Assembly: GCF_900103175.1 (NCBI RefSeq)
Contig: NZ_FNLF01000002.1
Coordinates: 2,122,136-2,186,135, forward strand
Source: Tsukamurella pulmonis
GTDB taxonomy: Bacteria; Actinomycetota; Actinomycetes; Mycobacteriales; Mycobacteriaceae
DNA: 64,000 nucleotides
Direction: 5' to 3'
This document shows positions 5,927 to 21,602 of this stretch, piece by piece (positions within the stretch are counted from its first letter, which is position 1; each line of letters begins with the position of its first letter). The position numbers were made by a program, and so were the translations under genes. Under the pieces are notes generated by a model. The model worked only from the letters and a program-made list of their open reading frames with translations, searched no databases and was not told the DNA's origin.

Positions 5927-6048
5927 CGTTTCCCTCCGCTGCCCACCGCGATGCGGCCCTTCGATGCGATGTCTCTAGTGTGAACGGGACCACAGTGAAC
6001 GGTCCGTTGACGACCGGCTCTCAGTGGTGCAGAGTAAATGGTACACCG

Positions 6049-6064
6049 CTAAGCGAGCGCTTAG
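6049..6064. promoter_or_regulatory. TetR-type operator 1 (tetR/thiolase)
   Basis: CTAAGCG-AG-CGCTTAG, a perfect 7-base inverted repeat with a 2-base centre, lies 30 bases before the thiolase start and in the shared upstream region with tetR. The 18-base string TAAGCGAGCGCTTAGTCA recurs exactly in front of the SDR operon (from 7478). Recurrence at separate promoters of one pathway is the reason for calling it an operator. Confidence 0.75.
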
Positions 6065-6094
6065 TCAGCATAGTTTCAACTCGGAGGTCATCCC

Positions 6095-7312
6095 ATGCCC
6101 GAAGCAGTCATCGTCTCCACCGCCCGGTCGCCCATCGGGCGCGCAGCGAAGGGCTCGCTCAAGGACGCCCGCCCGGACGACCTCTCCGTCCAGATGGTGC
6201 AGGCCGCGCTGGCCAAGGTGCCCGGCCTGGACCCGCGCGACATCGACGACCTCATGTTCGGCTGCGGCCAGCCCGCGGGCGAGTCCGGCTTCAACATCGC
6301 CCGCGTCGTCGCCGTCGAGGCCGGTCTCGACCATCTGCCCGGCGTCACCGTCAACCGTTACTGCAGCTCGAGCCTGCAGACCACCCGCATGGCGTTCCAT
6401 GCGATCAAGGCGGGGGAGGGCGACGTCTTCATCTCCGGCGGCGTCGAGACCGTCAGCCGCTACATCAAGGGCAACTCCGACGGCCTGCCCGATACCAAGA
6501 ACCCGATCTTCGCCGACGCCGAGGCGCGCACCGCCACGTTCGCCGCCGGTGGTCAGACCTGGGTCGACCCGCGCGAGAACGGCCTGCTGCCCGACGTCTA
6601 CATCGCGATGGGGCAGACCGCGGAGAACGTCGCGCAGTTCAAGAACGTCAGCCGTCAGGACCAGGACGAGTGGGGTGTGCGCAGCCAGAACCGCGCCGAG
6701 GCCGCGATCGCCTCGGGCTTCTGGGCCAAGGACATCACCCCGGTCACGCTCGCCGACGGCACCGTCGTCAGCAAGGACGACGGCCCGCGCGCCGGCGTCA
6801 CCTACGAGGGCATCGCCGGCCTCAAGCCGGTCTTCCGCCCGGACGGCACCGTCACCGCGGGCAACTGCTGCCCGCTCAACGACGGTGCGGCGGCCGTGGT
6901 CATCATGTCCGACGAGAAGGCGAAGGCGCTCGGTCTCACGCCGCTCGCGCGGATCGTCTCCACCGGTGTCACCGGTCTCTCTCCCGAGATCATGGGCCTC
7001 GGCCCCGTCGAGGCGTCGAAGCAGGCGCTGCAGCGCGCCGGACTCTCGATCGGCGACATCGATCTCATGGAGGTCAACGAGGCGTTCGCAGCCCAGGTCA
7101 TCCCGTCGGTGCGCGACCTCGGCATCGATGTCGACAAGGTCAACATCAACGGCGGCGCCATCGCGGTCGGCCACCCCTTCGGTATGAGCGGCGCGCGCAT
7201 CACCAGCACGCTCATCAACTCGCTGCAGTGGCACGACAAGCAGTTCGGTCTCGAGACCATGTGCGTCGGCGGCGGCCAGGGTATGGCGATGGTCATCGAG
7301 CGGCTCAGCTGA
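6095..7312 (+). CDS. Acetyl-CoA C-acyltransferase (thiolase)
   Basis: A 405-residue thiolase, the carbon-carbon cleaving last step of beta-oxidation (3-ketoacyl-CoA plus CoA to acetyl-CoA plus shortened acyl-CoA). The acylated cysteine is Cys90 in VNRYCSSSLQ. NEAFAAQ, the histidine motif GGAIAVGHPFGMSGAR and the second cysteine in CVGGGQGMA are all intact, so it should be active. A ribosome binding site (CGGAGG, about 6080) precedes ATG 6095. It is monocistronic, with an operator in front and a hairpin terminator behind, and sits divergent from tetR. It probably closes the pathway encoded in the following operon. Confidence 0.92.
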   Translation: MPEAVIVSTARSPIGRAAKGSLKDARPDDLSVQMVQAALAKVPGLDPRDIDDLMFGCGQPAGESGFNIARVVAVEAGLDHLPGVTVNRYCSSSLQTTRMAFHAIKAGEGDVFISGGVETVSRYIKGNSDGLPDTKNPIFADAEARTATFAAGGQTWVDPRENGLLPDVYIAMGQTAENVAQFKNVSRQDQDEWGVRSQNRAEAAIASGFWAKDITPVTLADGTVVSKDDGPRAGVTYEGIAGLKPVFRPDGTVTAGNCCPLNDGAAAVVIMSDEKAKALGLTPLARIVSTGVTGLSPEIMGLGPVEASKQALQRAGLSIGDIDLMEVNEAFAAQVIPSVRDLGIDVDKVNINGGAIAVGHPFGMSGARITSTLINSLQWHDKQFGLETMCVGGGQGMAMVIERLS

Positions 7313-7330
7313 CCAGCGCTCGAACCGTCC

Positions 7331-7369
7331 CGGAGCGGCCCGTACGTCCTCGACGCGCGGGCCGCTCCG
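7331..7369 (+). terminator. Rho-independent terminator after the thiolase
   Basis: A GC-rich inverted repeat (CGGAGCGGCCCG at 7331-7342 with CGGGCCGCTCCG at 7358-7369), followed within three bases by a short T-run (CGTTTT). It separates the thiolase transcript from the next operon. Confidence 0.75.
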
Positions 7370-7477
7370 TCGTTTTCCGAGGCGGCGCACCGCGGACATC
7401 CGTACTGTGAGAAGGGTCACAGGAGTTCGCCGGCTCAAGGGGTCGTCACCCGGCGCGGTGTGTCGTAGGCTACAAAA

Positions 7478-7491
7478 TAAGCGAGCGCTTA
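7478..7491. promoter_or_regulatory. TetR-type operator 2 (12-gene operon)
   Basis: TAAGCG-AG-CGCTTA, identical to the core of operator 1 and followed by the same GTCA, ends 28 bases before the first gene of the long operon (ATG 7520). Its position fits repression of the whole operon. Confidence 0.75.
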
Positions 7492-7519
7492 GTCAGTTTG
7501 AATGGAAGGTGTGTGGAGC

Positions 7520-8272
7520 ATGACCCGATTCGCCGGGAAGACCGCGATCGTCACCGGAGCGAGCCGCGGCATCGGCCTGGCCATCGCGCAGCGGCTGGTG
7601 GCCGACGGCGCGAAGGTCGTCATCACGGCGCGCAAGCAGGAGGCGCTCGACGCCGCCGTCGTCGAGCTGGGCGGGCCGGACGTCGCCGTGGCCGTCGCCG
7701 GCTCGGGGGACGACGAGGCGCACCAGGATCAGGCGATCGCCACCGCGATCGAGACCTTCGGCAGCGCCGACTTCTTCGTCAACAACACCGGCATCAACCC
7801 GGTCTACGGCCCGCTCATGGACATCGACATCGCGGCCGCGCGCAAGATCTTCGAGGTCAACGTGCTCTCCACTCTGTCCTGGACCAAGAAGGTCCACGCC
7901 GCCTGGCAGAAGGAGCACGGCGGTGCGATCGTCAACGTCGGCTCGGTCGCCGGCCTGCGCCCCGCGCCCGGCATCGCCTTCTACGGCGTCTCCAAGGCGG
8001 CCGTCATCCACCTCACGGAGGAGCTCGCGGTCGAGCTGGGCCCGGACATCCGCGTCAACGCGGTCGCCCCCGCCGTGGTCAAGACCCGCTTCGCCACCGC
8101 CCTCTACGAGGGACGCGAGGAGCAGGTCTCGGCCGCGTACCCGCTCAAGCGCCTCGGCGTCCCGGACGACATCGGTTCCGTGGTCGCCTTCCTGCTCTCC
8201 GACGACGCGGCGTGGATGACCGGCCAGACGCTCACCGTCGACGGTGGCGTCCTGCTCACCGGTGGGGTCTAG
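7520..8272 (+). CDS. SDR-family oxidoreductase (FabG-like), first gene of operon
   Basis: About 250 residues with a classical short-chain dehydrogenase fold: TGASRGIG for NAD(P) binding, NNTG in place of the usual NNAG, a catalytic Ser in NVGSVAG, and the YGVSK Tyr/Lys pair. Such enzymes oxidise hydroxyacyl-CoA or reduce ketoacyl substrates. I chose ATG 7520 over the in-frame ATG at 7502 because GGAAGG (7504-7509) is well placed for it and overlaps the earlier start region. It opens a run of twelve genes with gaps of at most about 40 bases. In this context it may act as a 3-hydroxyacyl-CoA dehydrogenase; the substrate is inferred, not shown. Confidence 0.88.
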   Translation: MTRFAGKTAIVTGASRGIGLAIAQRLVADGAKVVITARKQEALDAAVVELGGPDVAVAVAGSGDDEAHQDQAIATAIETFGSADFFVNNTGINPVYGPLMDIDIAAARKIFEVNVLSTLSWTKKVHAAWQKEHGGAIVNVGSVAGLRPAPGIAFYGVSKAAVIHLTEELAVELGPDIRVNAVAPAVVKTRFATALYEGREEQVSAAYPLKRLGVPDDIGSVVAFLLSDDAAWMTGQTLTVDGGVLLTGGV

Positions 8273-8276
8273 GCCG

Positions 8277-9083
8277 ATGGCGGCCTTCGATCCGAAGGAC
8301 AAGGGCATCGTCGTCACGGGCGCGGGCAACGGCATCGGCGCAGCACTCGCGCGGGAGCTGGGCGCCCGCGGGGCGCGGGTCGTGGTGGCCGATCTCGACG
8401 CCGAGGGGGCCTCGCGCGTCGCGGACGAGATCACCGCCGCGGGCGGCACCGCGTACGCGGCCCCCGGCGACGCGGCCTCCGAGGAGGGCGTCGCCGCCCT
8501 CGTCGCCACCGCTCGCGGGCGCCTCGGCGCCATCGACGCCTGGTACGCCAACGCCGGCGTCGACCGCGGCCGCGGCCTCGAAGCCCCGGAATCCGACTGG
8601 GATCTCTCGTTGCAGGTCAACGTCATGGCGCACGTCAGGGCGGCCCGGCTCCTCGTCCCCGAGTGGGCCGAACGAGGCGCGGGCCGGTTCGTGGTCACCG
8701 CCTCGGCGGCGGGCCTGCTGACCATGCTCGGCGCCCCGGCGTACTCGGCCACCAAACACGCCGCCGTCGCCTTCGCCGAGTGGCTGTCGGTCACCTACCG
8801 GCACCGCGGCGTCGTGGTCCAGGCGATCTGTCCGCAGGGCGTGCGCACGCGGATGCTCGAGCAGTCGGGCGAACTGGAGGAGCTGCTCAGTCACGACACC
8901 GCGCTCACCCCCGAGCAGGTCGCGACGCAGGCGGTCGACGCGCTCGCCGGCGATGAGTTCCTCATCCTCCCGCACCCCGAGGTCGCGGGGTACTACGCCA
9001 CTCGTGCGGGTGCCACCGACAAGTGGCTGCACGGCATGAACAAGCTCCAGCAGCGACTGGAAGAGAAGGAGAGCACGCGATGA
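8277..9083 (+). CDS. SDR-family oxidoreductase
   Basis: About 268 residues. TGAGNGIG forms the nucleotide site, NAGV follows, and the catalytic residues lie in TASAAG and YSATK. The C-terminal region after about residue 190 is longer than in FabG and diverges from it, as in SDRs acting on larger alcohols. It starts four bases after the previous stop, and its own stop overlaps the next start (ATGA at 9080-9083), so translational coupling is likely. The substrate is unknown; a secondary-alcohol oxidation in the lactone/hydroxy-acid route is one option. Confidence 0.85.
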   Translation: MAAFDPKDKGIVVTGAGNGIGAALARELGARGARVVVADLDAEGASRVADEITAAGGTAYAAPGDAASEEGVAALVATARGRLGAIDAWYANAGVDRGRGLEAPESDWDLSLQVNVMAHVRAARLLVPEWAERGAGRFVVTASAAGLLTMLGAPAYSATKHAAVAFAEWLSVTYRHRGVVVQAICPQGVRTRMLEQSGELEELLSHDTALTPEQVATQAVDALAGDEFLILPHPEVAGYYATRAGATDKWLHGMNKLQQRLEEKESTR

Positions 9084-10069
9084 GGGCCTGGCAGGTACCC
9101 GAACTGGGGGAGCCGCTCGCCGTACTCCGGGAGGCCGACCTCCCCGTTCCCGAGCCGAGCCCCGGGCAGGTCGTGGTGCGCACGCTCGCGACGGCGGCGA
9201 ACTTCCCCGACGTCCTCATGTGCCGCGGGCTGTACCAGGTGAAGCCCGACCTGCCGTTCACCCCCGGCGTCGAGCTCTGCGGTGAGGTGGTCGCGGTCGG
9301 TGACGGTGTCGACGGCTTCGCCGTCGGTGATCGTGTGCTCGGTGGGGCGGCGCTGCCCGCGGGCGGCTTCGCGGAGTACGCGGTGCTCAGCGCCGCACAG
9401 ACCTTTCCCGCGCCGGCATCGCTCGATGACGCGCAGGCGTCGTCGCTGTTCATCGGCTACCAGACCGGGTGGTTCGGCCTGCACCGTCGCGCGCACCTGC
9501 AGGCCGGCGAGACCCTCCTGGTGCACGCCGCCGCCGGCGGCGTCGGCAGCGCCGCGATCCAGCTCGGCAAGGCCGCCGGCGCGAAGGTCATCGGCGTCGT
9601 GGGCGGCGAGGCCAAGGCGGAGGTCGCCCGCGCGCTGGGTGCCGACGTCGTGATCGACCGGCACACCCAGGATTTCGTCGAGGTGGTCAAGGCCGAGACC
9701 GGCGGCCGCGGTGCGGACGTCATCTACGATCCCGTCGGCGGCGAGACCTACAAGCGCTCCACCAAGTGCATCGCCTTCGAGGGCCGGATCCTCATCATCG
9801 GTTTCGCCGGCGGCACCATCCAGGAGGCCCCGCTCAACCACGCCCTGATCAAGAACTACTCGATCGTCGGCCTGCACTGGGGGCTCTACAACGCCCTCGA
9901 CCCGGCGGCGGTCCAGCAGTGCCACACCGAGCTGACCGCTCTGGCGGACAAGGGGTTGGTCAACCCGTTGGTGAGCGAGCGACTCTCGTTCGACCAGGTG
10001 CCGGACGGCCTGCAGCGGCTCGCGGACGGCACCACCGTGGGGCGCGTCGTCTACCAGGCGGACCGGTGA
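9080..10069 (+). CDS. NAD(P)H:quinone oxidoreductase / enoyl reductase-like (MDR family)
   Basis: A 329-residue zinc-free medium-chain dehydrogenase. The N-terminal GroES-like half carries NFPDVLMCRGLYQ and the Rossmann half the AAAGGVGSAA motif. The zinc-ligand cysteines of true alcohol dehydrogenases are missing. Relatives reduce quinones or enoyl substrates with NADPH. ATG 9080 overlaps the preceding stop, and its TGA overlaps the next GTG start (GTGA at 10066-10069), placing it inside a tightly coupled operon. In this pathway it could handle an enoyl or oxo intermediate, which is only an inference. Confidence 0.85.
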   Translation: MRAWQVPELGEPLAVLREADLPVPEPSPGQVVVRTLATAANFPDVLMCRGLYQVKPDLPFTPGVELCGEVVAVGDGVDGFAVGDRVLGGAALPAGGFAEYAVLSAAQTFPAPASLDDAQASSLFIGYQTGWFGLHRRAHLQAGETLLVHAAAGGVGSAAIQLGKAAGAKVIGVVGGEAKAEVARALGADVVIDRHTQDFVEVVKAETGGRGADVIYDPVGGETYKRSTKCIAFEGRILIIGFAGGTIQEAPLNHALIKNYSIVGLHWGLYNALDPAAVQQCHTELTALADKGLVNPLVSERLSFDQVPDGLQRLADGTTVGRVVYQADR

Positions 10070-10770
10070 CGGCGGAACCCGTGGCGGGCAGCGGCCCCGA
10101 TGGGCCGCAGGGCCGCCGGGTGGACGCCGTCCTGTTCGACTACGGCGGCGTCCTCACCCGGCCGATGCGCCACAGCATCGAGGCGTGGATCGCCGACGAG
10201 GGCATCGAACCCGCCAGTTTCACCGCCACGCTCAAGGCCTGGCTCGGACGGGACGCCCACGCGGGCAGCCCGATCCACCGGCTCGAGACCGGCGAGCTGC
10301 CCGAGGCGGATTTCGACGCGGAGTTCGCCGCGGCGCTGCGCACCCGTACGGGCGAGCCCGTGAATCCCGATGGTGTGCTGCGCCGCATGTTCGCCCGGAT
10401 CGAGGAGGACCCCGCGATGTGGGAGCTCGCCGCCGATCTGCGTGCGGCGGGCGTGCCCGTGGCGATCGTCTCCAACAGCTGGGGCGGCGGGAACCTCTAC
10501 CCCCGTGAGCGCCTCGCGGCCCTGTTCGCGCCGGTGATCATCTCGGAGGAGGTGGGGCTGCGCAAGCCCGACCCCGCCATCTTCCGACTCGCGCTCGACT
10601 CGCTCGGCGTCCCGCCCGAGCGGGCCGCCTTCATCGACGACGCGACGCCGAACATCGACGGCGCCGCCGCCCTCGGCATCCGCGCCGTGCATCACACCGA
10701 ACCCGCCACCACGCGTGCGGCCCTGCGGGAACTCGTTCCCGCCCTGGCCGATACGTCCGTCCACCCCTGA
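10066..10770 (+). CDS. HAD-family hydrolase, resembles the ACAD10 / epoxide-hydrolase N-terminal domain
   Basis: A 234-residue HAD phosphatase-fold protein. Motif I is FDYGGVLT with the likely nucleophile Asp25; the second Asp of the usual DxD is Gly (D-Y-G), as I remember for ACAD10-type domains. Motif II is VSNSWGG, motif III the Lys of GLRKPDP, motif IV FIDDATPN. A helical cap lies between about residues 35 and 110. GTG 10066 overlaps the preceding stop. In animals a domain of this type is fused to an APH kinase and an acyl-CoA dehydrogenase in ACAD10; here those two domains are separate genes 1.2-2.3 kb downstream in the same operon. It may remove phosphate from a pathway intermediate, or have lost catalysis. 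Confidence 0.85.
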   Translation: MTAEPVAGSGPDGPQGRRVDAVLFDYGGVLTRPMRHSIEAWIADEGIEPASFTATLKAWLGRDAHAGSPIHRLETGELPEADFDAEFAAALRTRTGEPVNPDGVLRRMFARIEEDPAMWELAADLRAAGVPVAIVSNSWGGGNLYPRERLAALFAPVIISEEVGLRKPDPAIFRLALDSLGVPPERAAFIDDATPNIDGAAALGIRAVHHTEPATTRAALRELVPALADTSVHP

Positions 10771-10781
10771 AGGAGAACACC

Positions 10782-11534
10782 ATGACCCAGCGCATCGCCA
10801 TCGTGACCGGGGCCGCCCGCGGCATCGGCGCCGAGGTGGCCCGCCGCCTCGCCTCCGACGGACACGCCGTCGCCGTCCTCGACCTCGACGAGGCCGCCTG
10901 CCGGGTGGTCGCCGACGAGATCACCGCCGCCGGCGGCCGCGCCATCGGCGTGGGTGTCGACGTCTCCGACGAGGAGAAGGTCGGCGCCGCCGTCACCCGC
11001 GTCGCCGAGGAGCTCGGACCGCCCACCATCCTGGTCAACAACGCGGGCATCATCCGCGACAACCTGCTCTTCAAGATGACCGTCTCCGACTGGGATTCGG
11101 TCATGGGCGTGCACCTGCGCGGCGCCTTCCTCATGTCGCGGGAGGTGCAGAAGTACCAGACCCAGGAGAAGTGGGGTCGCATCGTCAATCTGTCGTCGAC
11201 CTCGGCGCTGGGTAACCGCGGCCAGGCCAACTACTCGGCGGCGAAGGCCGGCATGCAGGGCCTGACCAAGACGCTCGCCCTCGAGCTCGGCCGCTTCGGC
11301 GTGACCGCCAACGCGATCGCTCCCGGATTCATCGCCACCGACATGACCGCCGCGACCGCCGAGCGGATCGGCGTCTCCTTCGAGGACTTCAAGACCGCTG
11401 CCGCCAAGGAGATCCCGGTGCAGCGCGTGGGCCTGCCCGCCGACATCGCGCACACCGCGAGCTTCTTCGCCAGTGAGGGTGCGGGATTCGTCTCCGGCCA
11501 GGTGGTCTACGTGGCCGGCGGGCCCAAGGACTAG
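10782..11534 (+). CDS. FabG-type 3-oxoacyl reductase / 3-hydroxyacyl-CoA dehydrogenase (SDR)
   Basis: A 250-residue SDR very close in pattern to FabG: TGAARGIG, NNAGIIRDNLLFKM, catalytic Ser in NLSSTSA, and YSAAKAG. An AAGGAG ribosome binding site (about 10769-10774) precedes ATG 10782. The family interconverts 3-oxo- and 3-hydroxyacyl thioesters. Next to a MaoC hydratase and acyl-CoA dehydrogenases it most likely works in the oxidative direction on 3-hydroxyacyl-CoA. The gene ends 31 bases before maoC. Confidence 0.9.
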   Translation: MTQRIAIVTGAARGIGAEVARRLASDGHAVAVLDLDEAACRVVADEITAAGGRAIGVGVDVSDEEKVGAAVTRVAEELGPPTILVNNAGIIRDNLLFKMTVSDWDSVMGVHLRGAFLMSREVQKYQTQEKWGRIVNLSSTSALGNRGQANYSAAKAGMQGLTKTLALELGRFGVTANAIAPGFIATDMTAATAERIGVSFEDFKTAAAKEIPVQRVGLPADIAHTASFFASEGAGFVSGQVVYVAGGPKD

Positions 11535-11565
11535 GCGCAGGACCGGACGGGAGAGGAAGACGAGC

Positions 11566-12018
11566 ATGCGGGTACTCAACGGACTCGAGGAGTTGCAGGC
11601 GGCCGTGGGGGAGCACCTCGGCTACAGCGACTGGGTCGAGATCGATCAGAAGCGGATCGACCTGTTCGCCGAGGCGACCGGCGATCACCAGTGGATCCAC
11701 GTGGATCCGGAGAAGGCGAAGGCCGGGCCGTTCGGGACGACCATCGCCCACGGCTATCTGACGCTCTCCCTCATCCCGATGCTGGTGTGGCAGATCTACA
11801 CCGTCGAGGGCACGAAGATGGGCGTCAACTACGGCTGCAACAAGGTCCGCTTCCCGGCGCCGGTGCCGGTCGGATCGCGGGTGCGCGCCGGTGTCGAGCT
11901 GGTCTCGGTGACCCCGGGCAGCGGCGGACAGCAGGTGGTGGCCCGGGTCACCATCGAGCGCGAGGGCGCGGACCGCCCGGCCTGCGTGGCCGAGACCGTG
12001 TCCGTGGTGGTCTTCTGA
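11566..12018 (+). CDS. MaoC-family (R)-specific enoyl-CoA hydratase
   Basis: A 150-residue single hot-dog domain. The hydratase-2 signature is intact: ATGDHQWIHVD provides the catalytic Asp/His, and the following GTTIAHGYLTLSL completes the motif. It hydrates trans-2-enoyl-CoA to (R)-3-hydroxyacyl-CoA and would pair with the FabG-like SDR just upstream. ATG 11566 follows a GAGAGGAAG stretch. Its TGA and the ATG of the kinase gene share one base (TGATG at 12016-12020). Confidence 0.9.
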   Translation: MRVLNGLEELQAAVGEHLGYSDWVEIDQKRIDLFAEATGDHQWIHVDPEKAKAGPFGTTIAHGYLTLSLIPMLVWQIYTVEGTKMGVNYGCNKVRFPAPVPVGSRVRAGVELVSVTPGSGGQQVVARVTIEREGADRPACVAETVSVVVF

Positions 12019-13034
12019 TGGCGGAGCAGCACCCGGGCCTCGACCTCGACGTCCTCGCGACCTGGCTCCCGCAGCACGTGGCGGGGGCGGGGGCGGACCT
12101 GAGCGCCGTGCTCATCGCCGGCGGCAAGTCCAACCTCACCTACCGCATCTCCGACGGTGCCTCGTCGTGGATCCTGCGCCGGCCACCGGTCGGGAAGCTG
12201 CTGCCGTCCGCGCACGACATGGGTCGCGAGTACCGGATGATGTCGGCGCTCGGCGGCACCGCGGTGCCGGTCCCGGTGATGTACTCGTACTGCGACGATC
12301 CCGCGGTGCTCGGCGCGCCGTTCTACGTGATGAGCGAGATCGACGGCGTGCCCTACCGCCGCGCGACCGAGCTCGAGGCGCTCGGTGCCGAGCGCACCCG
12401 GGCGATCTCCGAGCGCCTCGTGGACACCCTCGTAGACCTGCACCACGTCGATCCGGAGAGCGTCGGCCTGGGCGACTTCGGCCGCCCCGAGGGCTTTCTC
12501 GGTCGGCAGGTGCAGCGCTGGCGTAAGCAGTTCGCCGCCGCGCACACCCGCGACCTGCCCAAGGTCGACGAGCTCTTCACCGCGCTCGAGGCCCGCGTCC
12601 CCGCCGATTCGGCACCGGGGATCGTGCACGGGGACTACCGTCTCGACAACGTCCTCGTCTCGCCGCAGGACGAGCCGGCGGCCGTCGTCGACTGGGAGCT
12701 CGCGACGATCGGCGACTCGCTCACCGACCTCGCCCTGATGCTCGTCTACGGCCGGCTGGCGAAGGTCTCCGCGGGCACCGTCAGCGACGTGAGCGAGGCG
12801 CCGGGCTTCCTCGACGAGCAGCAGATCATCGACCGCTACGCCGCCGGATCGAGCCGGGACCTCGGCGATTTCGGCTTCTACATCGCCCTCTCCTGCTTCA
12901 AGCTCGCAGGCATCGTCGAGGGCATCCACTACCGCTACGTCAACGGGCAGACCGTGGGCGAGGGCTTCGCCGAGGCCGGCCAGGCAGTGAACCCGCTGCT
13001 GGACGCCGGACTCGACGCTCTGAAGGAGAACTGA
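12018..13034 (+). CDS. APH-family kinase of the ACAD10/11 type (proposed 4-hydroxyacyl-CoA kinase)
   Basis: A 338-residue aminoglycoside-phosphotransferase-fold protein. The catalytic loop HGDYRLDN has Asp206 (H204-G205-D206) and Asn211, and the Mg-binding Asp225 lies in [10 protein letters not shown]. The N-lobe has [10 protein letters not shown] as nucleotide loop. It is not a drug-resistance enzyme by context: it lies one base upstream of an ACAD10/11-type dehydrogenase. In animal ACAD10/11 and in the bacterial levulinate pathway (LvaA), this kinase type phosphorylates the 4-hydroxyl of hydroxyacyl-CoA so that a dehydrogenase-like partner can eliminate phosphate. That role is inferred here from family and neighbours. 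Confidence 0.85.
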
Positions 13035-13035
13035 C

Positions 13036-14265
13036 ATGGATTTCGCGTACGACGCCAAGACCACCGAACTGATCGGGCAGGTCAACGATTTCATGGACAG
13101 CCACGTCTATCCGGCGGAGGAGACCTTCCACCGCCAGCTGGCCGAGCTGGACGACCGCTGGGCATGGGACAGCGTCCCGGTCCTGGCGGAGCTGCGCGCC
13201 GAGGCTCGCAGCCGGGGCTTCTGGAACTTCTTCCTCCCCGGCGAGGGCGGTGCCGGACTGACCAACCTGCAGTACGCGCCCCTCGCCGAGATCTCCGGCC
13301 GCAGCCTGCACCTCGCGCCCGCGGTGTTCAACTGCGCGGCACCCGACACGGGGAACATGGAGGTGCTCAACGAGTTCGGTACCGCCGAGCAGAAGCAGCG
13401 ATGGCTCACGCCGCTGTTGAACGGCGAGATCCGGTCGGCGTTCGCGATGACCGAGCCGGACGTCGCCAGCTCCGACGCCACCAACATCGAGCTCTCCATC
13501 GTGCGCGACGGCGACGACTACGTCATCAACGGCCGCAAGTGGTGGATCACCGGTGCGATGAACCCGAACTGCGCCGTCTTCATCGTCATGGGCAAGACCG
13601 CCCCCGATGCCGAGCGTCACCGCCAGCAGTCGCAGATCCTCGTGCCCCGCGACACCCCGGGCCTCGAGGTGCTGCGCGGCATGGAGGTCTTCGGCTACGA
13701 CGACCACAGCCACGGCGGCCACGCCGAGCTGCGCTTCACCGACGTCCGCGTCCCCGCGAGCAACCTGATCGGCGACGAGGGCGACGGTTTCGCCATCGCG
13801 CAGGCCCGCCTCGGGCCCGGCCGCATCCACCACTGCATGCGCTCGATCGGCGTCGCCGAGCGCGCGGTGGAGATGATGTGCGAGCGGGTGTCGAGCCGCA
13901 CCGCCTTCGGCAAGCCGCTCTCCGAGCAGGGCGTGATCCGGGACTGGATCGCCGAGTCCCGTGTGCGGATCGAGCAACTGCGCCTGCTGGTGCTCAAGAC
14001 CGCCTGGCTGATGGACACCGTGGGCAACCGCGGCGCCCACACGGAGATCCAGGCGATCAAGATCGCCACCCCGCAGACGGTGCAGTGGATCCTCGACAAG
14101 GCCATCCAGTCGCACGGCGCGGGCGGCCTGTCCCAGGACTTCTCGCTCGCCGAGGCGTACGCCGGCATCCGCACGCTGCGCTTCGCCGACGGCCCCGACG
14201 AGGTGCACAAGAACTCGCTGGCGCGGGCAGAGCTCAAGCGCGTCGCAGCGAAGAAGGCGCAGTGA
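13036..14265 (+). CDS. ACAD10/11-type acyl-CoA dehydrogenase (phosphate-eliminating partner)
   Basis: A 409-residue acyl-CoA dehydrogenase fold ([16 protein letters not shown] flavin motif, FGKPLSEQG). Near the C-terminus it has [11 protein letters not shown]: Asp385 stands where classical enzymes have the catalytic Glu of YEGT. The ADGPDEVH string is, as I remember it, the mark of the ACAD10/11 subgroup. The gene lies one base after the APH kinase, mirroring the fused APH-ACAD order in animals. The likely reaction is conversion of 4-phosphoacyl-CoA to an enoyl-CoA. GTGA overlap (14262-14265) couples it to the next gene. Confidence 0.88.
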
Positions 14266-15443
14266 CCACCGCGCAGGAACTCGACGGGCGCATCGACGAG
14301 TTCCTCGCGGCGCACCCGCCCATCGCGACCGATCCACTGGAGTTCCTGCGCGCGCGGTACGACGCCGGGCTGGCCTGGGTGGCCTACCCCGAGGGGCGCG
14401 GCGGACTCGGGCTGTCCCGATCGCTGCAGCAGGGCGTCGACGCCCGGTTCGCCGCCGCCGGTGCCCCGGACAACCGCAGCCACGTCAACGGGATCGGGCT
14501 CGGCATGGCCGCGCCGACGATCCTCGCGTTCGGCACCGCGGAGCAGATCGACCGGTTCCTGCGCCCGCTGTGGACGGGCGAGGAGATCTGGTGCCAGCTC
14601 TTCAGCGAGCCCGGCGCGGGGTCCGATCTGGCGGGCCTCGCGACCCGCGCGGTGCGCGACGGCGACGACTGGATCGTCACCGGGCAGAAGGTGTGGACCT
14701 CGGGCGCGCACAACGCGCAGTGGGCGATCCTCGTCGCCCGCACCGACCCGGATCAGCCGAAGCACAAGGGCCTGACGTACTTCCTGTGCGACATGTCCGA
14801 CCCGGGCATCGACGTGCGCCCGCTGCGGCAGATCACCGGCGAGGCCGAGTTCAACGAGGTCTTCCTCGAGGGCGTCCGCATCCCGGACGCACACCGCCTC
14901 GGCGCGGTGGGGCAGGGGTGGCAGGTTGCGAACGCCACGCTCAACAACGAGCGGGTCGCGATCGGCGGCCGCGCCGCGCGGCGCGAGGACGGCATGATTG
15001 GCGTCGTCGCGAAGACCTGGCGCGAGCGGCCCGAGCTGCGCACGCCGGACCTGCACGACGACCTGCTCCGCCTGTGGGTGGACAGCGAGGTCGCCCGCGT
15101 GACCGCGCTGCGCCTGGGACAGAAGCTCGCCTCGGGCCAGCCCGGCCCGGAGGGCGCCGCGATGAAGCTGTCGTTCGCGCGGCTGAACCAGAAGCTCTCC
15201 GGACTGGAACTGGAGCTGCTCGGTGAGGACGGCCTGCGCTACGGGGAGTGGACGATGGTCCGCCCCGACCGGGTCGACTTCTACGGCCGCGACGCCGGGT
15301 ACCGGTACCTGCGCGCCAAGGGCAACTCGATCGAGGGCGGCACCTCGGAGATCCTCAAGAACATCGTGGCGGAGCGCGTGCTGGGCCTGCCGCCGGAGCA
15401 CCGGGTCGACAAGGACCTGCCGTGGAAGGACGTGCCCAAGTGA
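14262..15443 (+). CDS. Acyl-CoA dehydrogenase, possible alpha chain of a heteromer
   Basis: About 393 residues, GTG start overlapping the previous stop. The flavin-binding motif is [16 protein letters not shown], and the C-terminal motif [24 protein letters not shown] is that of mycobacterial FadE proteins that work in pairs. A second, shorter and more divergent acyl-CoA dehydrogenase overlaps it by four bases. Adjacent pairs of this kind in cholesterol-degrading mycobacteria form alpha2beta2 enzymes that share the active site. I infer the same here. It would introduce an alpha-beta double bond in an intermediate of the route; the substrate is not known. Confidence 0.88.
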
Positions 15444-16525
15444 GCTTCACCCCGCACCTGCTCGACAGTGACGTCGAGGACGATCTGCGCGCCGCCGTCC
15501 GCGACCTGCTCGGCCGACGGGTCGCACCGTCGGACCTGATCGCCGCCTACGACGGCGACCCCGCGCCCGGCCTGCGGTCGGAGCTCGCGGACATGGGAGT
15601 CGCCGGCCTGCTCGTCCCGGAGGAGTCCGGTGGCGCCGGAGCCGGTGCCGCCGTCGCCGGCGTGGTCGCCGAGGAGCTCGGTTCCGCGTGTGCGGCCGGT
15701 GATTTCCTCACCTCGGCGGGCATCGCCACCGCGACGGCGCTCGCTGCGGGCGCCACCGACCTGGTGGCCGCCCTCGCCGCGGGGGAGCGCACCGCTGCGC
15801 TCGCCGTGCCCTTCTCCGTGGATCCGCACGGCCCGGTCCGGGGCGTCACCGTCACCGGCGGCGCGCTCACCGGGACCGTCCGGTCGGTGGCCGGGGCACT
15901 CGGCGCCGACGTGCTGCTGGTGCCGGGCGACGACGGTGCGCTGTACGCCGTCGAAGCGTCCGCCGCGCAGATCACCGCGGTCTCGTCCCTGGACATGACG
16001 CGGCAGCTCGCGGACGTCGTCCTCGCCGACGTCCCGGGAACGCCGGTCGCCGCCGACGGCGCCGCCGCCGTCCGCGCGGGGCTGCTCACCGGGGCGGCGC
16101 TGCTCGCCGCCGAGCAGGCAGGTGTCGCCCGCTGGTGCGTCACGACGACGGTCGCGTACCTCAAGGAGCGCAAGCAGTTCGGGCGCGTGGTCGGCGGGTT
16201 CCAGGCGCTCAAGCACCGCCTCGCCGAGCTGTACGCCGACGCCGAGTCCGCCGCCGCGGCGGCACGGTCGGCGACGGTGACGTTGTCCGCCCTCGGCACC
16301 GAGGACCCGGAGACCCGGATCGCGGTCGCCGTGGCGGCGGCGTACTGCTCCGACCTCGCGGTCCGCGCGGCGGAGGAGGCGGTGCAGCTGCACGGCGGCA
16401 TCGGCATGACCTGGGAGGCGCCGGTGCATCTGTACCTCAAGCGCGCCAAGGCGGATCAGATCGGGCTCGGCACTGCGGGGCGGCACCGCGCCGCGCTCGC
16501 GGGCCTCGTCGACCTGCCCGCCTGA
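15440..16525 (+). CDS. Divergent acyl-CoA dehydrogenase, possible beta chain of a heteromer
   Basis: 361 residues, shorter than typical (about 380-400). The middle domain is shortened and very Ala-rich, and the usual TEPxxGSD flavin motif is missing. It keeps KERKQFGRVVGGFQALKH and LHGGIGMTWEAPVHLYLKR but ends without the YEGT/IEGGTSE segment. This is the pattern of the non-catalytic or half-site partner in paired FadE enzymes. It overlaps the preceding acyl-CoA dehydrogenase gene (GTGA at 15440-15443), which supports a stoichiometric complex. It is unlikely to be active alone. Confidence 0.82.
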   Translation: MSFTPHLLDSDVEDDLRAAVRDLLGRRVAPSDLIAAYDGDPAPGLRSELADMGVAGLLVPEESGGAGAGAAVAGVVAEELGSACAAGDFLTSAGIATATALAAGATDLVAALAAGERTAALAVPFSVDPHGPVRGVTVTGGALTGTVRSVAGALGADVLLVPGDDGALYAVEASAAQITAVSSLDMTRQLADVVLADVPGTPVAADGAAAVRAGLLTGAALLAAEQAGVARWCVTTTVAYLKERKQFGRVVGGFQALKHRLAELYADAESAAAAARSATVTLSALGTEDPETRIAVAVAAAYCSDLAVRAAEEAVQLHGGIGMTWEAPVHLYLKRAKADQIGLGTAGRHRAALAGLVDLPA

Positions 16526-16567
16526 GAACACCGCGCCCCGGGCGCACCGAGACAGGAAGAAGGAATC

Positions 16568-17551
16568 ATGGGAGTCGTCCACACCGTCACCGGAGACGTC
16601 GACGCCGCCGATCTCGGCGTCACCCTCATGCACGAACACGTCTTCGTGCTCACCCCGGACATCCAGCAGAACTATCCGGAGGACTTCGGTGACGAGGATG
16701 TCCGGGTGGACGACGCCGTCGCTCAGTTGCAGAAGGCCCACGACGCGGGCGTGCGCACCATCGTCGATCCGACGGTGGTGGGCCTCGGCCGCTACATCCC
16801 GCGCATCCGGCGGATCGCGGAGCGCACACCGGTGCGGATCGTGGCGGCGACGGGCGTCTACACCTACCGGGACGTGCCGCGCTACTTCATGTACCGCGGC
16901 CCGGCGCTCACCGCGATGACCGGGATCGATTTCCCGGATCCCATGGTGGACATGTTCGTCCGCGACATCACCGAGGGCATCGGCGACACCGGGGTCAAGG
17001 CCGGCATGCTCAAGTGCGCCATCGATCACTACGGGCTCACCGACGGCGTCGAGCGCGTGATGCGCGCGGTGGCGAAGGCGCACAACGCCACCGGTGTGCC
17101 GATCACCGTGCACACGCATCCCGGCTCCGAGACGGGCCTGTTGGTCAAGCGGGTGATGTGCGATGAGGAGGGAGTCGACCCGAGCCGGATCGTGCTGGGG
17201 CACAGCGGCGACTCGACCGACGTCGAGCACCTCACGGCGCTTGCCGATGCCGGGTTCACCCTCGGCTTCGATCGGTTCGGCATCAACCTCGAGACCACGT
17301 TCGAGGCCCGCAACGAGACCCTCATCGAGATGGTGCGCCGCGGCTACGCCGAACGGATCGTACTGTCCCAGGACGCCTCCTGCTACATCGACTGGATCGA
17401 CCCGAACGTCAAGGCGGGCATGACCCAGTGGCACTACACGCACGTCTTCGACGACGTCTTCCCGTACGTCCTCGAGCGAGGCGTCACCCAGGCGCAGATC
17501 GACACGATGCTCGTGGACGTGCCGCGCCGCGTGCTGACCGGGGAGGCGTAG
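16568..17551 (+). CDS. Phosphotriesterase-like lactonase (PLL family)
   Basis: 327 residues, amidohydrolase TIM barrel with a binuclear metal site. All ligands are visible: H22 and H24 (MHEH), the bridging Lys144 (GVKAG), H182 (VHTH), H212 (LGHSGD) and Asp269 (SQDAS). Two features separate lactonases from true phosphotriesterases: the Tyr in TGVYTY (about 98) and the Asp-Arg pair in GFDRFGIN (235-236). Both match what I remember of SsoPox-type lactonases. Such enzymes open gamma- and delta-lactones to hydroxy acids, with weak side activity on organophosphates. Between acyl-CoA dehydrogenases and a CoA ligase, the natural role is probably to feed 4- or 5-hydroxy acids into the pathway. It begins 42 bases after the previous gene. 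Confidence 0.87.
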   Translation: MGVVHTVTGDVDAADLGVTLMHEHVFVLTPDIQQNYPEDFGDEDVRVDDAVAQLQKAHDAGVRTIVDPTVVGLGRYIPRIRRIAERTPVRIVAATGVYTYRDVPRYFMYRGPALTAMTGIDFPDPMVDMFVRDITEGIGDTGVKAGMLKCAIDHYGLTDGVERVMRAVAKAHNATGVPITVHTHPGSETGLLVKRVMCDEEGVDPSRIVLGHSGDSTDVEHLTALADAGFTLGFDRFGINLETTFEARNETLIEMVRRGYAERIVLSQDASCYIDWIDPNVKAGMTQWHYTHVFDDVFPYVLERGVTQAQIDTMLVDVPRRVLTGEA

Positions 17552-19060
17552 ATGTCGTTCAACCTCGCGACGATGCTCCGCGAATCCGCCGACGCCGCCC
17601 CGTCGGCGCCCCTGCTCTTCGCCGGTGACGCCGAGTTGGACTACCGCACCGTCGACGCCGAATCCGGTCGGCTCGCAGCGGGTCTGATTGCGGCGGGCCT
17701 GGCTCCGGGGGACAAGGTGGCCGTGCAGCTGCCGAACCTCCCGCAGTTCGTCGTCGCCTATTTCGGCATCCTCAAGGCCGGCCTGACGATGGTCCCGTTG
17801 AATCCGCTGTTCACGGCCCGCGAGGTCGAGTACCACCTGACCGACAGCGATGCCCGGCTGTTCATCACGTCCGCTTTCTCCCTCGCCGGCGCGCTCGAGG
17901 GCGCCCGCGCCGCGGACGTGAGCGACGTCGTGGTGGTGGGCGGCGAACCGCCCGCCGGGGCCCGGGATTTCAGCGCGCTGCTCGGCGAGGACGCGAGGGA
18001 GATCCACCCGACGAACGCCGACGACACCGCGGTGCTGCTCTACACGTCGGGGACGACCGGGCGTCCCAAGGGTGCCGAGCTCACCCACATCGAGCTCTAC
18101 ATGAACTGCACCATCGCGCCGCAGCTGTTCGGCATGCGGGCCGACGACGTCGCGCTCGGAGCGCTGCCGCTCTTCCACGTCTTCGGCCTCTCCAGCGTGC
18201 TCAACGCCGCGGTGCGGTACGGCGGGTCCATGGCGCTGTTGCCGCGGTTCGAGGCGGAGGCGGCGATCGACGTCATCGAGCGTCGCCGCGTCACCGTGCT
18301 CTCGGGCGTGCCGACGATGTACGTGGCACTGCTGGGCGTCGACATCGCGGGGCGCGACGTGCGGAGCCTGCGCGCCGCGGTCTCGGGCGGTGCGTCGATC
18401 CCCGGCGGCGTGATCCGCGCCTTCGAGGAGAAGTTCCCCGGGCTGGCGATCCTCGAGGGCTACGGGCTCTCGGAGACGGCGTCGACCGCGACCTTCAACA
18501 TCAGCGCCGAACAGCGCAAGGTGCTCTCCATCGGCAAGCCCATCTGGGGCGTGCAGATGCGGGCCGTCGATCCCGACGGTGCCGAGCTCCCGCCCGGGGA
18601 GGAGAACGTCGGCGAGATCGTGGTGCGCGGGCACAACGTGATGAAGGGCTACTACAAACGGCCCGAGGCCACCGCGGAGGCGATCCGCAACGGCTGGTTG
18701 CACACCGGCGACCTCGGCTACCGCGACGAGGACGGCTACTTCTTCATCGTGGACCGGCTCAAGGACCTCATCGTGCGTGGCGGGTACAACGTCTACCCGC
18801 GCGAGGTCGAGGAGGTGCTCTACGCCCATCCGGACGTGATCGAGGCCGCCGTCGTGGGCCGCCCCGACGACCGGCTGGGGGAGGAGGTCGTGGCGCACGT
18901 CGTCCTGCGCCCCGGTTCCGCCCTCGACGAGGACGGCCTCGCCGCCTACGCGAAGGAGCATCTCGCGGCGTACAAGTACCCCCGCGCCTACTACGTGCGG
19001 GCCGAGCTGCCCAAGGGGGCCACGGGCAAGATCCTCAAGCGGGAACTGCGCGCGCAGTAG
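17552..19060 (+). CDS. AMP-forming acyl-CoA synthetase (FadD-type)
   Basis: 502 residues. The adenylate motif LLYTSGTTGRPKGAELTH, the YGLSETAS motif, HTGDLGYRDEDGYF, and the C-terminal catalytic Lys in GATGKILKREL are intact. It activates a carboxylic acid to its CoA ester using ATP. It starts directly after the lactonase stop with no gap and is the last gene of the operon, so its substrate is probably the hydroxy acid released by the lactonase. Substrate choice is inferred from neighbours only. Confidence 0.9.
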   Translation: MSFNLATMLRESADAAPSAPLLFAGDAELDYRTVDAESGRLAAGLIAAGLAPGDKVAVQLPNLPQFVVAYFGILKAGLTMVPLNPLFTAREVEYHLTDSDARLFITSAFSLAGALEGARAADVSDVVVVGGEPPAGARDFSALLGEDAREIHPTNADDTAVLLYTSGTTGRPKGAELTHIELYMNCTIAPQLFGMRADDVALGALPLFHVFGLSSVLNAAVRYGGSMALLPRFEAEAAIDVIERRRVTVLSGVPTMYVALLGVDIAGRDVRSLRAAVSGGASIPGGVIRAFEEKFPGLAILEGYGLSETASTATFNISAEQRKVLSIGKPIWGVQMRAVDPDGAELPPGEENVGEIVVRGHNVMKGYYKRPEATAEAIRNGWLHTGDLGYRDEDGYFFIVDRLKDLIVRGGYNVYPREVEEVLYAHPDVIEAAVVGRPDDRLGEEVVAHVVLRPGSALDEDGLAAYAKEHLAAYKYPRAYYVRAELPKGATGKILKRELRAQ

Positions 19061-20112: not shown

Positions 20113-20126
20113 TAAGCAAACGCTTA
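20113..20126. promoter_or_regulatory. TetR-type operator 3 (transporter/hydrolase)
   Basis: TAAGC-AAAC-GCTTA differs from operators 1 and 2 only in the centre (TAAGCAAACGCTTA against TAAGCGAGCGCTTA, two changes) and keeps both 5-base arms. It lies in the 176-base gap between the divergent hydrolase and transporter genes, 18 bases upstream of a -35 box. Confidence 0.6.
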
Positions 20127-20213: not shown

Positions 20214-21602
20214 ATGACACAGACCCACGACCCGGGCGCCGCCGCACCGGTGACCGCGAAGAAGTCGCACGGCAAACTGCTGACCGCCGGGCTGGTGAGC
20301 AGCTCGATCGAGTGGTACGACTTCTTCGTCTACGGCACTGCCGCCGCCCTCGTGTTCGACAAGGTCTTCTTCCCGGACCTGTCGCCGCTGATGGGCACGC
20401 TGATGGCGTTCGCCACCTTCGCGGTGGGCTTCGTCGCCCGCCCGGTGGGCGGCATCCTCGCCGGGCACTTCGGCGACAAGATCGGTCGCAAGCCGATGCT
20501 CATCTGGTGCCTGGTCGCGATGGGGACCGCCACTTTCCTCATCGGCTGCCTGCCCACCGCGAGCGCGATCGGCTCGCTCGCGCCGATCCTGCTGGTGTCC
20601 CTGCGCTTCGTGCAGGGTCTGGCGTGCGGCGGCCAGTGGGGCGGCGTGGTCCTGCTGCTCACCGAGTCCGCCGGCCCCAAGAAGCGCGGCTTCGCCGGCA
20701 CCTTCGGCCAGATGGGCGTGCCGCTGGGGCTGCTGCTGGGCAACCTGATGATGATCCTGATGAACGGCGTCCTCGACGACGCGGCCTTCCTCAGCTGGGG
20801 CTGGCGCGTGCCGTTCTGGGCCAGCGCGATCCTCGTACCCGTCGTGATGTACATCCACAAGAAGATCGAGGACTCGCCGGAGTTCCTCGCCCTGCAGCGC
20901 GAGGTCGCGGCCAAGAACGCCGGCAAGGAAGCGGTCGCCGCCGCTCCGCTGTCGGAGGCCATCCGCAAGCACTGGCGGAAGATCCTGCTCGGCGCGGGCC
21001 TGCTCGCCGGTACCAACTCCGCGTTCTACGTCTCGATCGCCGGCTTCGTCAGCTACGGCAGCAAGAAGCCGTCCGCGGGCGGCCTCGGAATGAACAGCAA
21101 CTCGATCCTGGCGTGCGTACTGGCGACGTCGATCGTGATGCCGATCGTGATCATGATCGCCGGTGCCGTGTCCGACCGAGTCGGCCGCCGGCCGCTCATC
21201 CTGATCGGCGGCGCCGTGCTCGTCGCCTGGGCGTTCCCGTTCTTCTGGCTCGCCGAGACCACCAACATCGGTCTGCTGCTGGTCGCGATGTTCGTCTCGA
21301 GTTTCGGTCAGGCGCTGACCTACGGCCCGCTCGCCGCGTTCATGGCCGAACTGTTCGAACCGCGCATCCGCTACTCCGGCGCCTCGCTGGCGTACCAGCT
21401 CGCGGCCGTGGCCGTCTCGGGCGTCGCACCGCTGATCATGACGGCGATCATCGCGGAGACGCAGTCCAGTACGTTCGTCTCGGTCTACCTCGCGGCCATG
21501 GGCCTGGTGACCTTCGCCAGCGCCTACCTGCTCAAGGAGACGAACGGCAAGGCGGTGCGCGAGGATCCGAACGCCGTCCCCGGCGTCCCCGTAGCGGCGT
21601 GA
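20214..21602 (+). CDS. MFS transporter, metabolite:H+ symporter (MHS) family
   Basis: 462 residues with about twelve membrane segments. The MHS signature SSSIEWYDFFVYG at the first helix and GDKIGRKPM in the 2-3 loop, repeated as SDRVGRRPL in the second half, identify the family. It imports small organic acids (citrate, shikimate, ketoglutarate and the like) with protons. With an operator of the island in front and a TetR, a CoA ligase and a carboxylase behind, it probably brings in the carboxylate substrate of the pathway. ATG 20214 is preceded by GAAGGG. Confidence 0.9.
   Translation: MTQTHDPGAAAPVTAKKSHGKLLTAGLVSSSIEWYDFFVYGTAAALVFDKVFFPDLSPLMGTLMAFATFAVGFVARPVGGILAGHFGDKIGRKPMLIWCLVAMGTATFLIGCLPTASAIGSLAPILLVSLRFVQGLACGGQWGGVVLLLTESAGPKKRGFAGTFGQMGVPLGLLLGNLMMILMNGVLDDAAFLSWGWRVPFWASAILVPVVMYIHKKIEDSPEFLALQREVAAKNAGKEAVAAAPLSEAIRKHWRKILLGAGLLAGTNSAFYVSIAGFVSYGSKKPSAGGLGMNSNSILACVLATSIVMPIVIMIAGAVSDRVGRRPLILIGGAVLVAWAFPFFWLAETTNIGLLLVAMFVSSFGQALTYGPLAAFMAELFEPRIRYSGASLAYQLAAVAVSGVAPLIMTAIIAETQSSTFVSVYLAAMGLVTFASAYLLKETNGKAVREDPNAVPGVPVAA

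Follow-up and report, generated by a model that had tools for sequence, protein, structure and literature searches.

Kinase and dehydrogenase chemistry has been reported for the animal proteins ACAD10 and ACAD11 and for LvaA and LvaC, encoded by the lva operon of P. putida, and lva and ACAD10/11 have already been joined in print (PMC11342911, PMC12440821; these and the other papers are cited here from excerpts of their texts). The qsd locus of R. erythropolis comprises qsdR, the lactonase gene qsdA, the ligase gene qsdC and the gene qsdD for a transporter of the major facilitator superfamily (MFS) (PMC4640858, PMC6262395). It has been reported to use gamma-caprolactone, which induces qsdA 80-fold and qsdC 270-fold (PMC6476934), and to be induced by N-acyl-homoserine lactones (AHLs; PMC6262395); neighbours of qsdA have already been suspected of being pathway members (PMC3689677). 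Here we describe a 12-gene operon in a stretch of 64,000 nucleotides of the Tsukamurella pulmonis genome (hereafter referred to as the window; contig NZ_FNLF01000002.1, positions 2,122,136 to 2,186,135). The operon combines a phosphotriesterase-like lactonase (PLL) and a CoA ligase with a HAD protein, an APH-fold kinase and an ACAD10-type acyl-CoA dehydrogenase (ACAD). Judging from its genes, it probably serves the catabolism of lactones and 4-hydroxy acids, and a similar set of genes adjacent to qsd is the best candidate for the step that would follow CoA activation.

The ACAD10-like gene set of the operon

The operon spans 11.5 kb of the 4.78-Mb genome, which is assembled in two contigs, and has the gene order SDR1-SDR2-QOR-HAD-FabG-like SDR-MaoC-APH-ACAD10-type-ACADb-ACADc-PLL-CoA ligase, where SDR stands for short-chain dehydrogenase/reductase (Table 1). 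Its intergenic gaps range from -4 to +42 bases, and a thiolase gene ends 207 bases upstream. An initial annotation of this DNA had described a HAD protein with a D-Y-G-G motif I, an APH protein with HGDYRLDN and, beginning one base past it, an ACAD carrying ADGPDEVH, together with a lactonase and a CoA ligase separated by a gap of 0, a MaoC protein, a FabG-like SDR and a pair of further ACADs. Its gene coordinates and motifs proved correct, the HAD motif reading FDYGGVLT, and all of the genes are uninterrupted.

Among all PDB chains, the best matches of the ACAD10-type protein were ACAD11 (8v3u, 8v3v and 2wbi; 454–461 bits) and 4hr3 (446 bits), and the next one, among the 58 sequences listed, scored 152 bits. 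In ACAD11, R626, H634 and R637 are reported to bind the 4-phosphate, and D753 is reported to be the catalytic base (PMC12440821). They correspond to R258, H266, R269 and D385 of the window protein, the printed ACAD11 chain being numbered one below the numbering of that paper; R263 is also present. We aligned 61 rows, of which 51 are distinct because certain loci were taken twice and near relatives have the same sequence. R626, R631, R637 and D753 were invariant in this alignment, and H634 was present in 60 of the 61 rows. The full active-site set is missing from the three other ACADs of the window, of which ACADb has an arginine at the R637 position and two have R631.

In a tree of 42 rows (40 different), ACAD11 was nested in an ACAD10-type clade of 26 rows with support of 100/100, and the other ACADs of the window lay outside this clade. 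P. putida LvaC was not among the rows. The exact position of ACAD11 within the clade (87/81) is not firm because long branches meet at the junction of the clade with ACADc, the ACAD11 row is long and the ACADc rows have an odd composition. The initial annotation had left room for the dehydrogenase to be an ordinary FadE-type enzyme. With ordinary ACADs used for comparison, it clustered instead with ACAD10/11, both by score (460 versus 152 bits) and by clade. Thus, as far as sequence can tell, the window dehydrogenase is of the ACAD10/11 type.

Downstream of the ACAD10-type gene, 9 of 29 loci outside the window have a relative of ACADb, making a paired ordinary ACAD a common companion. Long open frames met in the homologue search also prompted the idea of a bacterial ACAD11-like fusion of APH and ACAD. 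We rejected it at 10 distinct places (11 loci), where the two parts lie in different frames or have a stop codon between them.

The best solved relatives of the APH protein are 9o56 (225 bits), 3dxp (219 bits) and the ACAD11 kinase (191–194 bits); 3dxp carries the name acyl-CoA dehydrogenase, yet it matches the kinase. The protein has the APH fold with HGD...N and DWE motifs, and D206, N211 and D225 are the same in all 41 rows aligned (35 distinct). In the ACAD11 kinase, CoA is contacted by R86 and R176. The resemblance to ACAD10/11 kinases that had been suggested at the outset is supported by both the solved relatives and the invariant catalytic motifs, which point to an ACAD10/11-like kinase. 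In one other locus (L065), an APH frame of 695 amino acids (11479–13566) continues into a Cyclase-family (PF04199) frame. This frame was not counted as a fusion because the APH and Cyclase-type parts are separate matches in a second locus (L068). A Cyclase-family frame follows APH in both loci (family f27, linked to a lactonase; the PF04199 match comes from L065), and its product is possibly another hydrolase acting in the pathway.

All 24 aligned HAD rows (23 distinct) carry D-[YFW]-G-G as motif I, in which the nucleophile Asp is retained and Gly stands in place of the second Asp of DxD. In many actinobacteria, a HAD gene lies divergent from the ACAD10-type gene at a distance of about 0.05–1.2 kb. 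In two loci (L080 and L081), no APH gene was found near the HAD-ACAD10 pair with the queries used, and APH homologues are present elsewhere in both genomes.

Linkage of the lactonase to ACAD10-type genes, qsd included

Among solved proteins, the window PLL best matches 4if2 (370 bits), a phosphotriesterase homology protein that we take to be PHP (Rv0230c) of M. tuberculosis, followed by SsoPox-type chains (232 bits). H22, H24, K149, H182, H212, D269, Y98 and R236 are common to the PLLs of the window, of Nocardioides phosphati, of a qsd locus identified by primers (see below) and of a further locus (L064); presumably these are positions of the binuclear metal site and the lactone site, as mapped from SsoPox. 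The window PLL is 57% identical to the primer-identified QsdA and can be classed as a QsdA-type lactonase, a predicted hydrolase of gamma-lactones or AHLs.

The nearest named relatives of the window lactonase come from Tsukamurella (91–95% identity, eight named loci). The cluster is present in all eight loci, which were picked via the lactonase, and one of them (L015) is without the ligase. To place this linkage on a wider footing, we turned to a family draw of 301 genomes, in which a PLL was found at E <= 1e-100 at 122 places in 118 genomes. ACAD10-type genes, searched at E <= 1e-130 in all 118 of these genomes, were found in 112 of them, at 187 places. At 32 of the 122 places, a PLL and an ACAD10-type gene were no more than 5 kb apart. 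The number rose to 49 (9 genera) for a distance of 10 kb and to 52 (11 genera) for 25 kb, where about 1.75 would be expected, and it was still 52 at 50 kb. Linked places made up 14 of 16 in genus g1, 16 of 23 in g124 and 11 of 21 in g5. Among the same-genus genomes listed in this draw (that of the window included), the PLL was linked to an ACAD10-type gene in 14 of 16; the sole PLL of one genome (G424; 58%) was unlinked, and another (G378) had no PLL at the cut-off. Since related species were counted apart, the independent linkage events are fewer than these counts. The gene orders around linked pairs differ, as seen for the part of the linked places whose surroundings were compared.

In a class draw of 246 genomes, an ACAD10-type gene lay no more than 10 kb from 6 of the 47 PLL matches (about 0.18 expected), four of the six genomes concerned being of one genus. 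HAD matches were within 10 kb in 36 of 95 cases (about 0.3 expected) and within 3 kb in 29, many of them divergent. The best 150 ACAD10-type places were used for these counts, and the expectations assume random placement in genomes of 5.5 Mb.

In N. phosphati (L020), HAD (7055–7732), APH (7729–8769), ACAD10-type (8769–10004) and PLL (10001–10981) genes are consecutive, with overlaps of 4, 1 and 4 bases. This order is the N-to-C domain order of ACAD10, followed by the lactonase. In N. immobilis (L016), ACAD10-ACADb-ACADc genes lie 7–9 kb upstream of the PLL gene.

To locate qsd itself, we used the published qsd primers as probes on genomes. The qsdA-F primer had an exact match in 6 of 29 genomes, always within a PLL gene. 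All 8 qsd primers matched without mismatch in one genome (G332), and 6 to 8 of the 8 matched within two mismatches in G319, G355, G385 and G470; because of these matches, we infer that these genomes belong to the R. erythropolis group. G332 carries qsdA, qsdC, qsdD and HAD one after another, then ligase and MaoC genes on the opposite strand, and SDR2. At 9.8 kb from qsdA, there is an ACAD10-type-SDR1-APH-FabG-ACADb-ACADc-QOR-thiolase-SDR series. The G332 proteins are 65% (HAD) and 80% (ACAD10-type) identical to those of L064, and 80% (FabG), 69% (ACADb), 53% (ACADc), 69% (QOR) and 36% (thiolase) identical to those of the window. G319, G355, G385 and G470 have the same gene arrangement. The window MFS protein is 62% identical to the one at the QsdD position of a qsd locus (L157). 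At the second PLL locus of another genome (G412), no HAD gene was recognised.

Beyond the lactonase, ligase and MFS genes themselves, nine kinds of genes of the window operon thus recur by qsd: HAD, MaoC, SDR, APH, ACAD10-type, FabG, ACADb, ACADc and QOR. These results support the notion that the lactonase is repeatedly linked to ACAD10-type modules, qsd included. One point of the initial annotation has to be corrected: it had seen no lactonase entry described for this module, and entry of gamma-lactones through a lactonase and a CoA ligase is already known as qsd (PMC6262395, PMC6476934, PMC4640858, PMC3689677).

Operator sites, regulators and neighbouring genes

The thiolase gene had been said to share an operator with the operon, and this was indeed the case: the palindrome TAAGCGAGCGCTTAGT is identical at 6050, before the thiolase gene, and at 7478, before the operon (Table 1). 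In its relaxed form, TAAGCNNNNGCTTA, the palindrome has 3 sites genome-wide, all inside about 14 kb of the window, and its shuffle expectation for the window is 0.00. Among the eight named Tsukamurella loci, 6 have the operator 5′ of SDR1 and 7 have it 5′ of the MFS gene; these loci start within the thiolase gene, and the thiolase-side operator is outside their range. The TAAGCNNNNGCTTA pattern also adjoins TetR1 homologues in two loci (L076 and L079) and occurs in five short loci. Because three operator sites stand before them, the thiolase gene, the operon and the MFS transporter gene look like one small regulon. TetR1, whose best solved relative is 3him (137 bits), is the likely reader of the operator. 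A scan of 5900–7600 for sigma-70 promoters and terminators found nothing; a 15-pair inverted repeat lies at 7331–7369.

Table 1. Features of the window in and around the operon (positions counted from the first nucleotide of the window)
Feature	Position	Strand	Basis
TetR1, TetR-type regulator, divergent from thiolase	5312..5926	-	NCBIfam TetR matches, none above cut-off
Operator palindrome TAAGCGAGCGCTTA, TetR1-thiolase intergenic	6050..6063		
Acetyl-CoA acyltransferase (thiolase)	6095..7312	+	NF005890 785 bits, cut-off 580
Second, identical operator (TAAGCGAGCGCTTA), 5′ of SDR1-ligase operon	7478..7491		
SDR1, SDR oxidoreductase	7520..8272	+	NF005559 315 bits, cut-off 215
SDR2, SDR oxidoreductase	8277..9083	+	Among models listed, all under cut-off
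QOR, MDR oxidoreductase (zinc/quinone-reductase type)	9080..10069	+	Pfam ADH_N, ADH_zinc_N; TIGR02824 243 bits, under cut-off
HAD, stand-alone	10066..10770	+	GTG start; PF00702 61 bits; TIGR02247 83.9 bits, under cut-off
FabG-like SDR (candidate 3-hydroxyacyl-CoA dehydrogenase)	10782..11534	+	TIGR01830 253 bits, cut-off 297.75 not reached
MaoC-type hydratase	11566..12018	+	PF01575 103.6 bits
APH-fold kinase, ACAD10/11-kinase-like (predicted 4-hydroxyacyl-CoA kinase)	12018..13034	+	PF01636 168 bits
ACAD10-type acyl-CoA dehydrogenase	13036..14265	+	ACAD11 460 bits vs 152 best ordinary ACAD in PDB
ACADb, ordinary acyl-CoA dehydrogenase, larger partner	14262..15443	+	TIGR03204 166 bits, under cut-off; outside ACAD10-type clade
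ACADc, smaller acyl-CoA dehydrogenase partner, IpdE2-like	15440..16525	+	NF050027 IpdE2 135 bits, cut-off 450 not reached
PLL (phosphotriesterase-like lactonase)	16568..17551	+	PF02126 293 bits; 4if2 370 bits
Acyl-CoA ligase	17552..19060	+	NF004837 492 bits, cut-off 476
Third, variant operator (TAAGCAAACGCTTA), before MFS gene	20113..20126		
MFS metabolite/H+ symporter	20214..21602	+	PF00083/PF07690; TIGR00883 388 bits, under cut-off

A reversed gene for an alpha/beta hydrolase sits between the CoA ligase and MFS genes of the window. In Tsukamurella sp. M9C (L012, 12.5–18.3 kb), about 6 kb with a ligase-like gene parts the ligase gene from that of the alpha/beta hydrolase, the two being close together in other named loci. 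Downstream of the MFS-TetR2-ligase2 genes, and behind the third operator, there is a gene for a single-chain acyl-CoA carboxylase (biotin carboxylase and carboxyltransferase, 1058 amino acids; 24028–27204, + strand), which may act on the propionyl-CoA or longer acyl-CoA of odd-chain products. In one locus (L120, genome G250), relatives of the window ligase2 (62%) and MFS protein (57%) are encoded less than 4 kb from a PLL gene. Such an arrangement is in line with the third operon (MFS-TetR2-ligase2) being part of the same pathway. On the other side of the window operon, a Rhomboid-like protein (PF20401; 3317–4102, - strand) is encoded next to an ordinary ACAD (4136–5293) and TetR1.

A candidate route and its alternatives

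In the route that we propose, a gamma-lactone would enter the cell, probably through the MFS symporter, and its ring would be opened by the PLL to give a 4-hydroxy acid, which the CoA ligase would convert to 4-hydroxyacyl-CoA. The APH kinase would then phosphorylate the 4-hydroxyl group at the expense of ATP, and the ACAD10-type enzyme, with a redox-active FAD, would remove the phosphate from the resulting 4-phosphoacyl-CoA, yielding 2-enoyl-CoA and phosphate. MaoC, SDR and thiolase would turn this product into acetyl-CoA and a shortened acyl-CoA, and the ACADb/ACADc pair would serve the next round of beta-oxidation. The sequence analysis itself establishes which genes are present, the diagnostic residues, the phylogenetic position of the ACAD, the linkage of the genes and the common operator. 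The substrate, the order of reactions, the mode of transport and regulation and the role of HAD are our inferences, and the complete route to acetyl-CoA and a shorter acyl-CoA, which the initial annotation had also put forward, is read from the gene content.

A number of observations weigh against the assignment to lactone and 4-hydroxy-acid catabolism. In the family draw, 70 of the 122 PLL genes have no ACAD10-type gene within 25 kb, several contigs ending early, and all 23 PLL genes of genus g2, which we take for Mycobacterium, are unlinked. Of the 25 named PLL loci, 15 are without an ACAD10-type gene, five of these being less than 17 kb long. The class draw, at E-value cut-offs that differ among the queries, contained ACAD10-type genes in 148 of the 246 genomes, HAD in 88 and PLL in 44. 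Because the ACAD10-type gene is so much commoner than PLL, the lactonase is to be regarded as an optional entry. PLLs, moreover, also hydrolyse AHLs, and identity between the ligase of the window and the QsdC located by the primers is only 37%. The best NCBIfam family of the window HAD, TIGR02247 (HAD-1A3-hyp), is presumably the model for the HAD domain found in animal ACAD10, and the score of 83.9 bits falls short of its curated cut-off of 125.4. Five other HADs encoded near ACAD10-type genes reached 66–91 bits, with TIGR02247 as the best family in all 6; full membership of TIGR02247 was accordingly rejected for the 6 proteins scored. As for regulation, a reversed-pattern control of TAAGCNNNNGCTTA gave 2 places in the genome against the real 3, so that the evidence for the operator lies in the clustering within about 14 kb and not in the number of sites. 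QsdR was not supported as the regulator, its structure 4ZA6 being absent from the matches listed for either TetR (for TetR1, the best 60 of 95). Finally, accounts of qsd induction disagree, in that gamma-lactones are reported not to be bound by QsdR, and OC8HSL not to induce qsdA (PMC4640858). In print, moreover, the qsd pathway is taken to join the beta-ketoadipate pathway via a beta- or omega-oxidation step (PMC3689677).

Other explanations of the locus have to be weighed against this background. The lactonase might merely recover lactones that form spontaneously, an SDR being a 4-keto reductase. The three SDRs of the operon, the common occurrence of ACAD10-type modules without a lactonase and the pairing of kinase and ACAD as in LvaA/LvaC (PMC11342911, PMC12440821) are consistent with this, but we consider it unlikely, given the place of the PLL gene inside the operon and its repeated linkage to modules of this kind, a linkage that includes qsd, which one group found to be strongly induced by a gamma-lactone (PMC6476934). 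The likeness of the PLL to QsdA and the reported induction of qsd by AHLs (PMC6262395) would also suit a quorum-quenching island, in which the PLL opens AHLs, other genes degrade the acyl chain and the kinase-ACAD pair is incidental. This appears improbable: gamma-caprolactone, the lactone of 4-hydroxyhexanoate, strongly induced qsdA and qsdC (PMC6476934), and family scans of the operon proteins recognised no amidase. On general grounds, one would expect AHL acyl chains to call for an amidase together with ordinary beta-oxidation, and not for a 4-hydroxyacyl-CoA kinase. We see only a slight chance that the operon is an island for sterol- or isoprenoid-type acyl-CoA degradation with the lactonase as a passenger. 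ACADc has its best match, far under the cut-off, in IpdE2, presumably a steroid ring-degradation enzyme, and such pathways typically have ACADs in pairs; the scans of the operon proteins (for several of them, the best 25 families) nevertheless contained no steroid-specific family over its cut-off, and the active site agrees with the one known from 4-phosphoacyl-CoA enzymes that have been studied. A KstR2-type steroid island, prompted by the IpdE2-like ACADc and a KstR2 match of TetR1 (69 bits), was not supported, the thiolase being NF005890 and no steroid family in the lists being over its cut-off.

Within the lactone and 4-hydroxy-acid pathway, the HAD protein most likely restrains the APH kinase, a role that is plausible by analogy with the HAD domain of ACAD10. 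That domain is reported to keep just one of the two DxD aspartates and to show negligible phosphatase activity, and mutation of the remaining Asp to raise kinase activity (PMC11342911). These reported properties argue against the alternative that HAD is an active phosphatase acting on 4-phosphoacyl-CoA or another dead-end phosphate, to which we nonetheless give not far short of an even chance. In the 24 rows (23 distinct), the Ser of motif II, the Lys of motif III and the DD pair of motif IV are kept along with the nucleophile Asp, and a weak relationship (38 bits) to the phosphatase YihX was seen. YihX-type phosphatases likewise lack the second Asp. Because of these intact motifs and the YihX parallel, the active phosphatase stays a serious rival to the kinase regulator.

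A more far-reaching proposal, which we advance tentatively and with some doubt, would be that ACAD10/11-type phosphate elimination is the missing middle of the qsd gamma-lactone pathway; that bacterial HAD, kinase and dehydrogenase pieces are fed by the lactonase, with HAD as a feedback regulator of the kinase; and that animal ACAD10 is a fusion of such a set. Among the open-access papers listed, seen mostly by title and the opening of the abstract, we found none joining the qsd lactonase to an ACAD10/11-type kinase-dehydrogenase. Entry through lactonase and ligase is thus known, and its coupling to ACAD10/11-type phosphate elimination, which we did not find in print, would be new. If true, this coupling would join the quorum-quenching lactonases (qsd), levulinate catabolism (lva) and animal ACAD10/11, the lactonase side being the new part. 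It would also provide a concrete, genetically linked candidate for the entry of ring-opened gamma-lactones into beta-oxidation, as well as a bacterial system of separate genes suited to the study, by gene deletion, of the puzzling HAD domain of ACAD10.

In comparison with the known systems, the window shares with qsd a PLL lactonase, a CoA ligase and an MFS transporter, in the same PLL-ligase-MFS order. However, qsd is a lactonase-ligase-transporter group under a divergent QsdR, and this qsdR-A-C-D arrangement is not found in the window, where the lactonase and ligase genes are the last of an operon with HAD, APH, ACAD10-type and beta-oxidation genes and are accompanied by another TetR and operator. 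4if2 belongs to the same PLL family as the window lactonase, whereas none of the 23 PLL genes of g2 is linked to an ACAD10-type gene. The lva operon of P. putida resembles the window in having a CoA ligase and separate genes for an APH kinase and an ACAD. LvaB is the partner of the LvaA kinase there. The lva operon differs in being described for levulinate and in that the excerpts name no lactonase for it; in the excerpt of PMC12440821, LvaC is said to share the ACAD10/11 active site, and lva to have no homologue of the ACAD10 HAD domain. Animal ACAD10 (HAD-APH-ACAD) and ACAD11 (APH-ACAD) are built from the same three kinds of domains as the window proteins, with the order of ACAD10 recurring in the N. 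phosphati genes and motif I of both the window HAD and ACAD10 being without the second Asp. Unlike in ACAD10/11, these domains are separate proteins in the window, with a HAD that scores below the TIGR02247 cut-off.

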